From NCBI RefSeq assembly GCF_000504245.1, contig NZ_KI632509.1, positions 186,001 to 250,000 of the forward strand: a stretch of DNA of 64,000 bases. The letters run 5' to 3'. Below are positions 5,169 through 45,409 of the stretch, in pieces. How positions within the stretch are numbered: position 1 is the stretch's first letter; every line of letters begins with the position of its first letter. A program made the translations under genes and the position numbers. The notes under the pieces were generated by a model, which saw only the letters and a list, made by a program, of their open reading frames with translations, made no database searches and was not told the DNA's origin. This DNA is from Haloechinothrix halophila YIM 93223 (GTDB lineage Bacteria > Actinomycetota > Actinomycetes > Mycobacteriales > Pseudonocardiaceae).

Positions 5169-6215
5169 CTAGTTGCCGCCACCGTCGTGGCCGCCATCGC
5201 CACCGTTGCCGCCGTTACCGGGAACCGGGGCGCGATTGCGAGGGTCGGCGTAGGCGTCGATGTGTGAGATCTTCCACTCGCCATCGACGCGCACCGCGGT
5301 CACGGTCGGCTGGTCACCTGTCGCGGCGCTCTGCCCGCTGTCCTCCCGGACTGAGGTCTGGTCGATGAATGCCAAGACCCGCGCGGAGTCCTCGTTCATC
5401 TCGATCACCGCGACGTTGCGCACGGTCGTCTGGAGCACGACCTTCTGCTCCGGCGCCTTCTCCTTCACATCGCCCATGAGCTCCTCGTACTGCGACCGCA
5501 TCTCGTCGGTCGCCAGCACGTCCTTCACGGCCTGCTCATGCTGCTGCACGTTGTTGTAGTTGTACGAGAACATCGTTTCGAGGCCGTCCGAGACCTGCTG
5601 CTTGAGCTGCTCGGTCGCCACAACATCGACCATGGCCTTGTTCTCGTCGCCAGCGCCTGCCGCGAAATACTTGTACGCGAAGAACGCCGCGGTGAGTGCG
5701 AGCACCAGCGCCAGCGCACCGACCACGCTGGTCAGCGTCCACGAGGCGTGCCGCAGCCGCTGCTTCGTTGCCGCGGCACGGCCCTCCGGCAGCGCGGACG
5801 GCTGCGAGACCGTCTCGTCCGGTGACTCCGGCTTCCGGACGCCCCCGTCGCGGGCCTTCGGGCGAGGCCGGGGCCTCTTGGACGCGGTCGACGCCGTGGC
5901 GGCCACCGCGGCACCGCCGGTGTCGCTGCTGTCGGTGTCGTCGGTGTCGTCGGTGTCGTCGGTGTCGTCGGTGTCGTCGGTGTCGCTGTCGGCCACGTCC
6001 TCGGCGAAGTCGGTGTCCGCCGAGGTGTCTGCCGGAACAGCCGAGGCTTCCTCGACCTCCGTCTCCTCGGGCCGCATCTCGTCGGTGTCCGAGGCGTCCG
6101 TTCTTGGCTGCGGTGTCGGGCGGGGCGTGGGACTCGGCTTCGCTGACTTGCGCAGTCCAGCGACCTGCGGCCGCCGCGACCCGCCGCTGGGTGTCGATCG
6201 CCGTCGGTTTGTCAC
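5169..6215 (-). CDS. Mce-associated membrane protein (last gene of mce operon)
   Basis: This 348-aa protein is of the Mce-associated (Mas) type, thought to stabilise or assist Mce lipid transporters at the membrane. The start is a GTG at 6215 that overlaps the stop of the gene before it (GTGA), so translation is coupled. The N-terminal ~165 residues are disordered and contain an acidic Asp-Asp-Thr repeat plus a Pro/Arg-rich part. One membrane helix follows (ALALVLALTAAFFAYKYF). The ~170-residue extracytoplasmic C-terminal domain has the NTF2/SnoaL-like look of the family (ending near DGEWKISHIDAYADP). It is a paralogue of the next gene upstream. Only the association with Mce transport is supported by family and position; the molecular role is unknown. 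Confidence 0.8.
   Translation of the reverse strand: MTNRRRSTPSGGSRRPQVAGLRKSAKPSPTPRPTPQPRTDASDTDEMRPEETEVEEASAVPADTSADTDFAEDVADSDTDDTDDTDDTDDTDDTDSSDTGGAAVAATASTASKRPRPRPKARDGGVRKPESPDETVSQPSALPEGRAAATKQRLRHASWTLTSVVGALALVLALTAAFFAYKYFAAGAGDENKAMVDVVATEQLKQQVSDGLETMFSYNYNNVQQHEQAVKDVLATDEMRSQYEELMGDVKEKAPEQKVVLQTTVRNVAVIEMNEDSARVLAFIDQTSVREDSGQSAATGDQPTVTAVRVDGEWKISHIDAYADPRNRAPVPGNGGNGGDGGHDGGGN
5932..5985 (-). repeat. 9-bp tandem repeat (6 units) coding Asp/Thr repeats
   Basis: Six uninterrupted copies of the 9-mer TCGGTGTCG lie inside the Mce-associated gene. On the coding strand they give a DTD-DTD-type acidic run. Because the unit is 9 bp, slippage would change the length of the linker without breaking the frame. 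Confidence 0.9.
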
Positions 6216-32516: not shown

Positions 32517-33050
32517 ATGTCCCCCTGTGTTTTGTATTAGCGCAAAAAGATCCCCGACACAAAATTCGCGCAAAGATTACACGAACGAGGTAAAGGACAA
32601 ACCCCTCCTGGTGCATTTTGAAGCCACACTGTGATCGTCTTTGTCCACCCTCCGTGGCCGCGACGTGACACCGGGGGACGGTTGTCGCCCGGGCGTGCCC
32701 GAGGGACTGTCGTTCCGTCACCGCCGTATGGCGCGCCGAACCCGGCACGGAAAACCGGGGCGCGGGACTTCGACATGACTAGACGTCCATTCGGGTGATA
32801 ATGCTGTGGCACATATCGAGCCGGAAGTGCTTTTTGCAACTTGCAGCGTGGTGACCTCGGCTTTTTCCGCTATTCGCGAAAGTGCATGATCACTCAGTGA
32901 ACGGGAACACTTTTCGCGTATTTTGCGACCCTCGAGCAGGGTGCGAAACAACCGAACAATCGTCTAGGGTTAATTCAGAGTTTGCATCGATAAGGCATGG
33001 GTTACTTCACACCGCGGCGGCGAGCCCGCGGGGAAAGCCGTGAGGTGACT
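32517..33050. promoter_or_regulatory. Intergenic region between metallopeptidase and acetyltransferase genes
   Basis: This gene-free stretch of about 530 bp separates two divergent genes and is clearly less GC-rich than the coding DNA around it. It must hold both promoters. I cannot assign specific -10/-35 elements or operators with confidence, and I see no small gene. Confidence 0.4.
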
Positions 33051-33701
33051 GTGACGGCTATGAAGCAACTGCCAGCGAATCCACTGTCGATCAATCTGAC
33101 ATTCGAACACGAACGACTGTGGTGGCAGACCGACGACGAGGACCACATGCCGGAGCGCTGGAGCGTGTCCGCCGACGTGGCCGTCACCCGGTGCGCGCCG
33201 AAGAACCGGCATGTCGCTGACTTTTCGCTGGTCATCGCCGATCTGCACCGGGAGAGGAACCTGCTCGACGCACCTGACCTCGGTGACTGGGCGATGGAGT
33301 TCATCGCGGAGACGCTGATCGATCCGGCACAGGGCAAGCTGCACCCGGATCTCGATGACAAGATCACTCCTGGCGTCGCGCGAATGGTCATCGTCCGGCA
33401 CGTCGTACTGACGCCGCCATGGCAAGGACACGGTCTCGGCGGCGCATTGCTCGCGGGTGCGCTGCGCGCGCTCGCCCCAGGGGCGCGACTGGCCGTCGCC
33501 CGCGTTTCCCCGCTCGACTTCCTCTCATCCAGCCCTGACAAGATCTCGGCCGAGCTTGCGAGCATCCGATTCGGCGCACTTCTGGAACGCATCGGATTCA
33601 AACAATGGCGCGAGGTGCATTTCGTCGATCTGCAACACCCGCAACTCCTCGACGCCAGGATGGAAATGTTCGAACAGTACGAGAACATTTACGAGATTTA
33701 A
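33051..33701 (+). CDS. GNAT-fold acetyltransferase-like protein
   Basis: This protein of about 216 aa has the acetyl-CoA-binding stretch WQGHGLGGALLAGALRAL, which follows MVIVRHVVLTP as β-strand 4 does in GNAT enzymes. The N-terminal half has no recognisable family. The start is uncertain: the GTG at 33051 has GAGG 5 nt upstream, and the ATG at 33060 is nearly as good. The substrate is unknown. A 21-bp tandem repeat array begins 14 nt past its stop. Confidence 0.72.
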   Translation: MTAMKQLPANPLSINLTFEHERLWWQTDDEDHMPERWSVSADVAVTRCAPKNRHVADFSLVIADLHRERNLLDAPDLGDWAMEFIAETLIDPAQGKLHPDLDDKITPGVARMVIVRHVVLTPPWQGHGLGGALLAGALRALAPGARLAVARVSPLDFLSSSPDKISAELASIRFGALLERIGFKQWREVHFVDLQHPQLLDARMEMFEQYENIYEI

Positions 33702-33715
33702 CATCGCGCGGGTTC

Positions 33716-33840
33716 GTGTCCTCCGCTCAGCACGCCGTGTCCGCCATTCCTGACGCTGTGTTCTGCACTCAGGACGCTGTGTTCGTCGCTCCCGACGGCG
33801 TGTTCCCCGGTCAAACGTCGTGCTACCCGGGCTCAATGAC
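33716..33840 (+). repeat. Array of six 21-bp tandem repeats (3' flank of the acetyltransferase gene)
   Basis: Units begin at 33716, 33737, 33758, 33779, 33800 and 33820. They start GTGTYC and end GACGCY or a decayed form; the best unit is 33758-33778, whose centre CTGCACTCAG is partly self-complementary. The later units are increasingly diverged, and one is 20 bp. The same unit occurs at 42742-42846 and 44450-44533. From 33841 to 34102 I see nothing further except the HNH gene's ribosome site. Confidence 0.85.
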
Positions 33841-42696: not shown

Positions 42697-42739
42697 GAAG
42701 GGCGTCTTCACATCGCTATGTGATGCGAAGACGCCCTTC
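42697..42739 (-). terminator. Strong hairpin terminator upstream of htpX
   Basis: GAAGGGCGTCTTC pairs perfectly with GAAGACGCCCTTC (13 bp), with further pairing inside the loop. It shares its core with the mce operon terminator and lies at the end of the repeat array behind the secreted hydrolase gene. Confidence 0.75.
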
Positions 42740-42741
42740 AC

Positions 42742-42846
42742 AGCGTTGGGTTACCGGCACACGGCGTCCCGAGTGCGCAATACAGCGTCCCGAGCGACGA
42801 ACACGGCGTCCTGAATGCAGGACACAGCGTCCCGAACGCAGGACAC
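42742..42846 (-). repeat. Array of five 21-bp tandem repeats (3' flank of the hydrolase gene)
   Basis: Units at 42826-42846, 42805-42825, 42784-42804 and 42763-42783, plus a decayed one at 42742-42762, are all exactly 21 bp. On the minus strand the unit starts GTGTCCTGC and ends GGACGCC, with the self-complementary parts GTCCTG and CAGGAC in the best copy. Confidence 0.92.
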
Positions 42847-42862
42847 GACGCGCAGCGTCGTG
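42844..42862 (-). other. Hairpin directly after the hydrolase stop
   Basis: CACGACGC pairs with GCGTCGTG around a 3-nt loop, 1 nt past the TAG stop codon. It separates the stop from the repeat array. Confidence 0.6.
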
Positions 42863-42863
42863 C

Positions 42864-44372
42864 CTATGGCACCACGGGGAGCTTCGCCGTGACGTCTGCC
42901 AGCCGCAGGCCGCCTGGTGTACGACTGCCGTGCAGGGCGAACATGTCCGACGTCGGGCTCACGGTGAGGAACAACGACTCGCCTTCCCCAACCGTCGCGG
43001 CGACCGAGGGCAGCTCGATGTTCCGCCGGGTGCCGAGGTTGATGCTCTCCTCGCGGTGCGGCAGGACGTTGTTCTGGATCACCTGCGCATCGGCGGGCGA
43101 GGTGCCGACGCTGAGCGCGAAGAACGCCCTGCTGTCCAGGCCGAGCGCGGTGACCAGCGCGTCAAGATGTGGCGTGCCCGCGATGGTCAGCGGACCGTCG
43201 GCGATCTTGATCGCCTGCGGCACGCCCGCCGTCGTGGTCGTGGTGATGTCGGGCAGCTCGAACTCCACCGTCGCATCAACGGCGTCGACGCTGAGGCAGT
43301 CGCCGCCGGACGTCATCAGGTGGTAGCGCCCGTGCCCGGCGAGCTCGCGCGGCGCCCCCTGCAGGTTCTCTTGGTAGAACCGCAGTTCAAGGTCGTCGTA
43401 GCCACCTGCCAGCTTCTCCGAACAGGCGTCACCGGACACCGCGCTCCCAAGCGGCAGGACGTTCGGCAGCGCGTGGCCGCCGTTGTAGCCGATGAGCAGG
43501 CTCTTGCGGCGAGCACGGTCGGTCAGCGCGCGGTCGAAGTTCTTGATCGCCTGGTCGAGCGGGAACAGGTTGTCACTGATGCCCTGTCGCAGCAGCACCG
43601 GGATATCCAGCTTCCTACCGGCTTCGACGTGGAACGCGGGACCGTTGTTGCGGAAGAACTCATCCTGGCTGGCGGGCCAGTCACCGGTGGCGATGCCCTC
43701 CGCGAACCCGGCGTGCACCGTCGACGTGTGCGCGTCCAAGCCAACGGCGTAGAGCCCGCTCACCCAGGTGCTGCGCACGACCTCGTTCGGCGCGAGGCTT
43801 TCGTTGAGCGAGTACCAGGTGATCTGCGGAGCGAGCGCGTCGAAGCGGGTGCGACCGGTCTCCATCAGCTCGGTGAACGCGCCCACGAACTGGTAGCCGC
43901 CGCCGTACGACCCGCCGAGCGCGCCGAGCACCGGGTCGTTCCGGCCGTTCTGCTTCACCCAGTCCAGTCCAGCGACGTAGTCGATGACGTTGATGACGTC
44001 CTGCCCCTCGAACGCCGGGTCCTCCACGTGTGCCTTGCCACCGCTCTCACCGAAGCCGCGCTGGTCGATGCTGACCACGCCGAAGCCAGCGTCGAGATAG
44101 CGCTGGAACGAGCCTGGCATGGACGTCCTGCTGCCACCCCAGCCGTGGCTGTGCAGCAGCACCGGGGCGCGGTTGTCCTTGGACGCGCTCGCCGGTTTGA
44201 ACACGCTCACGCAGATGTCGACCGGACCGGGCTCCAGCGGGTCGGTCTCCGGCACGCTCGGAATGCAGACATTGTCCGGCTCAGGTGTGTCCGCGCTCGC
44301 GGGAATGGGCGCGGCGACCGCGATCCCAGCGCCCACCGCGATCGACGTCGCCAGACTGAGAAGGCTGCGCAT
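42864..44372 (-). CDS. Secreted alpha/beta hydrolase of the X-Pro dipeptidyl-peptidase (CocE/NonD) type
   Basis: This 502-aa protein has a cleavable signal peptide (MRSLLSLATSIAVGAGIAVA, cut near ASA-DT). An α/β-hydrolase core follows, with the nucleophile motif GALGGSYGGGYQ, the acid in GISDNLFPLD and the His in NGGHALP. A C-terminal β-rich domain ends at residue 502, as in CocE and S15 peptidases. The ATG at 44372 has AAGGAG about 9 nt upstream. It could act on peptides, esters or acyl compounds outside the cell; the substrate is not clear from sequence. Confidence 0.88.
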   Translation of the reverse strand: MRSLLSLATSIAVGAGIAVAAPIPASADTPEPDNVCIPSVPETDPLEPGPVDICVSVFKPASASKDNRAPVLLHSHGWGGSRTSMPGSFQRYLDAGFGVVSIDQRGFGESGGKAHVEDPAFEGQDVINVIDYVAGLDWVKQNGRNDPVLGALGGSYGGGYQFVGAFTELMETGRTRFDALAPQITWYSLNESLAPNEVVRSTWVSGLYAVGLDAHTSTVHAGFAEGIATGDWPASQDEFFRNNGPAFHVEAGRKLDIPVLLRQGISDNLFPLDQAIKNFDRALTDRARRKSLLIGYNGGHALPNVLPLGSAVSGDACSEKLAGGYDDLELRFYQENLQGAPRELAGHGRYHLMTSGGDCLSVDAVDATVEFELPDITTTTTAGVPQAIKIADGPLTIAGTPHLDALVTALGLDSRAFFALSVGTSPADAQVIQNNVLPHREESINLGTRRNIELPSVAATVGEGESLFLTVSPTSDMFALHGSRTPGGLRLADVTAKLPVVP

Positions 44373-44449
44373 CGAGAAGGTCTCCTTGTCGTCAATGCGT
44401 CGTAATGCCTTCTTCAACGACCAAGACGCGAATGCGATTCGCGCCACAC

Positions 44450-44533
44450 GACGTCACGGGCGTGCAATACGGCGTCCCGAACGCGCCATACGGCGTCGAG
44501 AATGCAGGACACAGCGTTCTGAGTGCAGGACAC
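44450..44533 (-). repeat. Array of four 21-bp tandem repeats (3' flank of ddaH)
   Basis: Units are 44513-44533, 44492-44512, 44471-44491 and 44450-44470 (the last is decayed). It is the same unit and orientation relative to the upstream gene as in the other two arrays. A small CCCCC/GGGGG hairpin lies between the ddaH stop and the first unit. Confidence 0.9.
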
Positions 44534-44548
44534 GCCCCCGTGGGGGTC

Positions 44549-45409
44549 TCAGTCGCGCAGCTCCAGGGTGCAGCACTTCGGGCCGCCGCCAGCCTTGCGC
44601 AGCTCCGTCATGTCGACCATGACCGGCTCGTAGCCCCGGTCGGACACCTGCTCAGCGAGGTTCGTCGCCTGCGCGGGCAGCACGACGTTGCGGCCGTCGG
44701 AGACGCCGTTGAGGCCGAGCACCGCGGCGTCGTCCGGGCCCGCCAGGATGGCGTCCGGGAACAGCCGCTCCAGCACACGCTGTGAGCCCTCGGAGAACGC
44801 GCCGGGGAAGTACGCCACCTCGGCGGGGTCACCGTCACGCGCTGGGGCGAGCACCATCAGCGCGGTGTCCAGGTGGTAGTAGCGCGGGTCGACCAGCCGC
44901 AGCGACACCACCGGTACGCCGAGCACCTCCTGCGCCTCGGCGTGCGCGGCCGGATCGGTGCGGAAGCCGGTGCCCGCAAGCAGCACGTCGCCGGCCCAGG
45001 TCAGGTCGCCTTCGCCTTCGTTGACCTCGCTCGGCATCACGATGTCGGCGAAGTCGTGCTCCGCGAACCAGCGCCGGTACAGGTCGGCCTCTGCCTGCCG
45101 TTCCGGCGCGCGGAACCGAGCACCGAGCACCCGTCCGCCGATGACGGTGCCCGAGTTCGCGGCGAACACCATGTCCGGCAGCCCCAGCTGCGGCTCGATC
45201 TCCTCGACGGTGTGGCCGAGCCGCAGGTAGGTGTCGCGCAACTCCTGCCACTGTGCCATCGCCACGTCGACGTCAACCGGCTTCGACGGGTCCATCCACG
45301 GATTGATGGCGTAGGTGACCTCGAAGAACCGTGGCGGGCACATCAAGTACCTGCGGGTCTCGGGGGTGCGTGAGCGGGACCGGGACATGCGAAGCGCTGC
45401 TGCCGTCAT
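44549..45409 (-). CDS. ddaH: Guanidino-modifying enzyme, dimethylarginine dimethylaminohydrolase-like
   Basis: This 286-aa enzyme of the amidinotransferase/DDAH fold has GEGDLTWAGDVLLAG, the catalytic His in YYHLDTAL, and the nucleophilic Cys in GPKCCTLELRD at the C-terminus. It hydrolyses a guanidino substrate such as methylated arginine or arginine; the exact substrate is not set by sequence. Mycobacteria have the same divergent pair of ddaH and an AsnC-type regulator. The ATG at 45409 has the -10-like TACATT exactly 7 nt upstream, suggesting a leaderless mRNA. Confidence 0.88.
   Translation of the reverse strand: MTAAALRMSRSRSRTPETRRYLMCPPRFFEVTYAINPWMDPSKPVDVDVAMAQWQELRDTYLRLGHTVEEIEPQLGLPDMVFAANSGTVIGGRVLGARFRAPERQAEADLYRRWFAEHDFADIVMPSEVNEGEGDLTWAGDVLLAGTGFRTDPAAHAEAQEVLGVPVVSLRLVDPRYYHLDTALMVLAPARDGDPAEVAYFPGAFSEGSQRVLERLFPDAILAGPDDAAVLGLNGVSDGRNVVLPAQATNLAEQVSDRGYEPVMVDMTELRKAGGGPKCCTLELRD

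Follow-up and report, generated by a model that had tools for sequence, protein, structure and literature searches.

The DNA analysed here, a stretch of 64 kb (the window), contains three arrays of 21-bp tandem repeats, which Tandem Repeats Finder placed at 42759-42847, 44440-44533, and 33715-33805. The first two flank a gene for a secreted S15/alpha-beta hydrolase (42864-44447, minus strand; PF02129, E = 1.3e-15), as the first-pass annotation had reported; the third had been overlooked. The longest frame of the hydrolase gene runs from a GTG at 44447, and its probable start is at 44372. Array 1 (42763-42846, minus strand) consists of four clear units, each reading GTGTYC..TC..GACGYY on that strand, and a partial GTGT comes next at 42759-42762. 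Five units had been counted originally; the fifth (42742-42762) is a heavily decayed copy in which GTGT and ACGCT alone survive. The array begins 17 nt past the hydrolase stop codon, and its front edge is the pentamer GCGTC (42847-42851, minus strand), an instance of the RCGYC boundary box derived from the statistics of 56 arrays described below. A small hairpin, ACGACGCTGCGCGTCGT (42846-42862, minus strand), lies between the hydrolase stop and the array.

Array 2 (44450-44533, minus strand) has four units, the last two of which are decayed (GTATGG and GTATTG). It begins 15 nt past the stop of a ddaH-like gene of the amidinotransferase fold (44549-45409, minus strand; PF19420, E = 7.6e-6), and the sequence between that stop and the array contains another small hairpin, CCCCCACGGGGG (44535-44546, minus strand). 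Both onsets agree with the earlier observation that these arrays start within about 20 nt of the preceding stop codon. Array 3 (33716-33799, plus strand), also identified by Tandem Repeats Finder, has four units trailed by a further decayed copy at 33800-33815; it begins 14 nt past the stop of a gene with no Pfam match (32997-33701, plus strand). All three arrays run in the direction of their preceding gene, an agreement that is a small-sample effect. Comparison of the window with Rfam 15 at gathering score returned four tRNAs only and nothing at the arrays.

Near array 1, a near-perfect hairpin with an 18-bp stem (GAAGGGCGTCTTC...GAAGACGCCCTTC; z = -8.1) occupies 42697-42739. This stretch has matches of 91-93% identity on several unlinked contigs of G049, and variants of it lie at the equivalent place in G003 and G049, both species of the window's genus. 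It appears to be a second dispersed hairpin repeat, and it is possibly the real terminator. A spurious ORF of 561 aa (42720-44405, plus strand), antisense to the hydrolase gene, crosses array 1 (RRPECRTQRPE repeats). Elsewhere in the window, a perfect 9-bp tandem repeat, GTCGGTGTC, is present in 6.1 copies at 5931-5985, within the gene at 5169-6077.

Searching the whole genome (5.55 Mb, one contig) with GCGTCCYGARYGCAGGACAC at up to 3 mismatches gave 284 matches, and reversing the pattern gave 2, so the repeats are no product of chance. In 1.24 Mb, a profile derived from that sequence had 196 hits above 14 bits in the real sequence, 11 in block-shuffled sequence, and 6 in reversed sequence, and its consensus unit was GTGT[C/T]C-NNC[A/G][C/T]TC-NN-GACG[C/T][C/T]. 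From 2.04 Mb of genome stretches, 56 arrays with at least two units each were catalogued. With an array search that permitted a slip of 1 bp at most, 191 of the 193 unit-to-unit steps were exactly 21 bp, and the other two, of 42 and 43 bp, represented a skipped unit. The front edge of the arrays is sharp, with RCGYC preceding the first GTGT in most of them (written RCGYC/GTGTCC, the slash marking the boundary): C was found at -1 in 51/56, T or C at -2 in 28/56 and 24/56, G at -3 in 44/56, and C at -4 in 43/56, and no conservation was seen at -6. The back end is a partial GTGT. With this partial box, n units have n+1 boxes; the element can be written RCGYC-[GTGTY-N16]n-GTGT, n being 2-9 in most cases. 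The 56 arrays showed no strand or replichore bias (29 plus and 27 minus), and no copies on plasmids or phages were found by blastn.

Genes were called with a purpose-written codon-pair model, by which stops are exact and starts approximate. Arrays in convergent, tandem, and divergent spaces numbered 22, 28, and 6, where the background of all intergenic spaces 80 bp or longer numbered 121, 507, and 281 (p = 1.4e-7), and the distance from an array to the stop codon on its near side had a median of about 14 nt. The proposed link to gene 3′ ends therefore holds in part, as a bias of position but not as one of orientation. In tandem spaces, 16 arrays pointed the same way as the genes and 12 were inverted (p = 0.57), which rules out the fixed direction relative to the preceding gene that had been read from the window; same and inverted counts were 5:2 in genus g33 and 2:4 in genus g24, giving 23 versus 18 when pooled with the window's genome.

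Fifty-three of the 56 arrays lie outside genes. The remaining three are in frame within genes, in the acidic tail of a membrane protein (67091), in an Hsp70-like linker (3380167), and, in antisense orientation, in a linker of a large polyketide synthase (3660619-3660723). A further array lies in frame (L051, 100-200) in a gene of an Actinophytocola MAG which, from its sequence, we take to be ksgA (16S rRNA dimethyltransferase). These four cases would suit an in-frame peptide-insertion element like the Rickettsia palindromic elements, whose length of 7 codons would be kept by insertion in genes. As a general explanation this was already unlikely, and the great majority of arrays outside genes, the 22-bp units of genus g21, and variable positions that are independent of codon positions leave it barely credible. 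The 22-bp units likewise dispose of the suggestion that seven codons are a constraint on the unit.

The arrays were also considered as 3′-UTR RNA elements, in which serial hairpins would terminate transcription or shield the 3′ ends of mRNAs. This reading draws on the best copies, in which GTCCTG can pair with CAGGAC, on the closeness of the arrays to stop codons, and on the folding of array transcripts, with a mean z-score of -1.65 in the array sense. However, the mean was -0.82 in the reverse sense, two of the three window arrays folded no better than shuffles, and the 6-bp stem was intact in 22 of 249 units. No covariation was detected for the variable pairs 6-15, 7-14, and 8-13, pairing being no commoner than in shuffled sequences either within or between neighbouring units, and the pairing arms are missing from the units of other genera. 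An intrinsic terminator or 3′-UTR hairpin is a stable hairpin in fixed orientation after a gene; the arrays have no such orientation and conserve no such hairpin. The serial hairpins previously proposed from self-complementary copies are thus not supported, and an RNA element of this type is very improbable. The small hairpins ahead of the arrays are present at the hydrolase and ddaH genes, as first described, but a hairpin before every array is ruled out as a general feature, since the 30 nt before arrays fold at -7.9 kcal/mol and the 30 nt after any stop at -7.4 kcal/mol.

Three GTGTY anchors spaced at 21 bp were sought in 399 genomes of the order; 19 of these had arrays, with two single hits outside family f1 and one hit in the reversed control. 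Within genera g26 and g21, arrays are present in some species and few or lacking in others. Across genome contigs, a strict two-unit pattern gave no match, and a looser one matched the Actinophytocola MAG and Prauserella halophila, both Pseudonocardiaceae; from these two named loci we infer that f1 is the Pseudonocardiaceae. The units were GTGTCCTGCACTCAGGACGCC in genus g1, GTGTTGCGGATTCCGGGGCCC in g33, GTGTCCGCAGCTCACGTAGCC in g24, GTGTCCGCCATCCGCGCACGC in g20, GTGTTCGCCGCTCCGGGCGGC in g26, GTGTCCGCGCTCCACGCACCC in g9, and, at 22-bp spacing, GTGTCCTACGTTCAGAACGC in g21. GTGTY and the period of 21 bp (22 bp in g21) are common to the genera, and the remaining bases are genus-specific. In P. halophila, units of the g33 and g1 types occur within one array, and the array at L052 7755-7935 passes from a GTGTTGCGG-type front to a GTGTCCTGC-type back. 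The arrays are family-wide interspersed tandem repeats, restricted to this family in the order sampled and alike in period and anchor. No named family was found for them, in line with the first-pass annotation: nothing corresponded in Rfam, and the non-subscription literature searched gave no published description.

Because the anchor and period persist, the main rival explanation is a protein-binding array, in which a nucleoid or regulatory protein would occupy the GTGTY boxes on one helix face every two turns, so that boundary or roadblock sites would separate convergent genes. Constancy of GTGTY and the 21-22 bp period between genera while the rest drifts, exact spacing kept even by decayed units, and enrichment between convergent genes are all consistent with it. 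Opposed to it are the gain and loss of arrays at orthologous sites among species of one genus (see below), the free unit number (2-9) and orientation, and the in-frame copies inside genes, which better suit a mobile repeat. No protein is known to bind these arrays. Selection for a bound protein could equally account for the anchor and period retained across genera, and binding as the explanation of the arrays is possible, though rather unlikely.

Three species of the window's genus, G003, G049, and G081, with approximately 80-92% DNA identity in aligned genes, were used for comparison. Array 1 is missing in G003 and G049, both of which keep a hairpin there, and at its site G081 has an array of two units that immediately adjoins the stop. 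The place orthologous to array 3 has a two-unit array in G003; at 1231094, G049 has no array and G003 has one made of different unit types. Such turnover is not general, because some orthologous arrays, such as that at 3548433, keep their units. At 3550252, the last unit is common to the window's species and G003 and the front is different; at 3407119 (207119 of segment s2), the last unit is again common between species and the front units are species-specific. The last unit at 1197338 is common to three species (GTGTTCCCCATTC in the window's species, GTGTTCCCCAGTC in G003, and GAGTTCTCCATTC in G049), and the front consists of GTGTCCTGCAGTC in six units, five of them identical, in the window's species and of GTGTCCCCCGYTC in G003 and G049.

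Bases 5-9 of the first unit were CCCCC in 8/14 arrays of G003 and 5/7 of G049, and CCTGC in 6/9 of G081. The prevailing first units were GTGTCCCCC in G003 and G049, GTGTCCTGC or GTGTCCCAC in G081, and GTGTCCTGC, GTGTCCCCC, or GTGTCCGAC in the window's species; a rough chi-square test of first-unit types by species gave p = 0.006, on counts that are small and partly non-independent. In the window's genome, position 5 was T in 2/48 first units and in 28/48 last units, whichever the gene orientation, and first pairs of units were more alike than last pairs by 30:11. Polarity is claimed for the window's genus alone, because it was not seen in g33, where the first pair was more alike in 4 arrays and the last pair in 10. 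Tandem units of eukaryotic polar minisatellites also change mostly at one end; here, by contrast, hundreds of dispersed loci in a bacterium form one family and have the current unit type in common.

Presence or absence at orthologous sites and species-specific front units make a mobile mini-element, one of the possibilities named in the first-pass annotation, the best fit. Inert minisatellites that arise and expand at each place by replication slippage alone would explain identical adjacent units, as in the row of five at 3550252, and local slippage could be the source of such identical neighbours. As a full account slippage is most unlikely, given that units of one type recur at many unlinked loci, that this type varies from species to species, and that new places have been occupied.

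Neighbouring arrays within 2 kb of each other were treated as pairs. In the window's genome, 9 pairs faced inward, none outward, and 5 pointed the same way; g33 and g24 yielded five further inward pairs and no outward ones, for a total of 14:0. Facing arrays are 14 bp to 1.6 kb apart, and the genes between them are ordinary and mostly short, encoding a DUF4333 lipoprotein, a DUF998 protein, a methyltransferase, an ArsR/MarR-type regulator, and a PsuG-like protein. At 722.8 kb (G000:C1:722793-723819), a lipoprotein-like gene (75% DNA identity) stands between facing arrays in the window's species and in G003, and the facing pair of G049 and G081 encloses nothing. In a composite element, a cargo gene flanked by inverted arrays would come or go as a unit; at this one locus, a gene has been gained or lost between the arrays. 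We put forward only tentatively, as a less likely scheme, that the array grows at its RCGYC/GTGTCC end by receiving 21-bp units from a genome-wide source through a dedicated, putative GTGTY-recognising enzyme, and that facing pairs are a mobile or gene-capturing form.

Among known repeats, mycobacterial interspersed repetitive units (MIRUs) are likewise actinobacterial, repeat directly in tandem close to stop codons, and vary in the number of units. MIRU units are about 50-100 bp long and comprise partial ORFs, whereas those of the arrays are 21-22 bp, and the two are not known to be related in sequence. REPs lie mostly downstream of genes, in the spaces that separate convergent or unidirectional ORFs, and are palindromes that prefer inverted pairs, HT dimers being absent or rare (Di Nocera 2013, PMC3733652; Bertels & Rainey 2011, PMC3116915). 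Their conserved palindromic stem is 5-13 bp, and one end carries a tag, either GTAG or CGTC. The arrays resemble REPs and REPINs in being short, intergenic with some copies inside genes, and present in about 100-300 copies, in their placement among convergent and unidirectional genes, in the inverted, inward-only pairing of neighbours, and perhaps in a short end tag, which is RCGYC in the arrays and CGTC in one superfamily of REPs. They differ in that head-to-tail units dominate in place of inverted doublets, in having no conserved palindrome, in units of 21-22 bp, and in pairs that are formed by arrays 14 bp to 1.6 kb apart. GTAG-type REPs are accompanied by RAYT, a Y1 transposase (Nunvar 2010, PMC2817692). 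The Y1/RAYT domain PF01797 was absent from the seven repeat-bearing genomes G000, G033, G067, G009, G092, G145, and G214, and no link to RAYT was seen. Because palindrome, doublet arrangement, and RAYT were tested and none was found, assignment to the REPs was rejected; REPs were not reported from actinobacteria in the survey PMC3733652. The Rickettsia palindromic elements named in that survey can also lie in frame inside genes, but they are palindromic single elements, whereas the present repeats are direct arrays nearly all between genes.

Taken together, the arrays are probably a mobile-like interspersed repeat of the Pseudonocardiaceae that amplifies in tandem, is tolerated, and has polar unit turnover. 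Such an element would settle harmlessly and nearly only in intergenic DNA, beside gene 3′ ends or between convergent genes, and occasional copies would sit in frame in disordered protein stretches; the position bias would then reflect tolerance, not function. In the window's genus, the front units next to RCGYC would be young and, at many loci, resemble the current unit type of the species; the back units (GTGTT..) would be old and common to species. New units may be copied from elsewhere in the genome, as is suggested by species-specific unit types at unlinked places, and the copying would be done by an enzyme or a repair process. No enzyme that would mobilise them was identified; the window's genome lacks Pfam Y1_Tnp. 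The repeats would spread and homogenise within each genome, so that each genus comes to have a unit of its own but retains the GTGTY anchor and the period of about two turns.

Annotation of these genomes calls for caution, since arrays read in frame yield both spurious ORFs and genuine in-frame insertions in proteins, and array-crossing antisense ORFs such as that opposite the hydrolase gene may be mis-annotated as proteins. If the interpretation is true, the Pseudonocardiaceae, a family with many antibiotic producers, carry an undescribed repeat system whose anchor and period persist as the units of each genome drift jointly. An array with one old end and one young end would preserve its own history, which would make the spread of such repeats directly testable.
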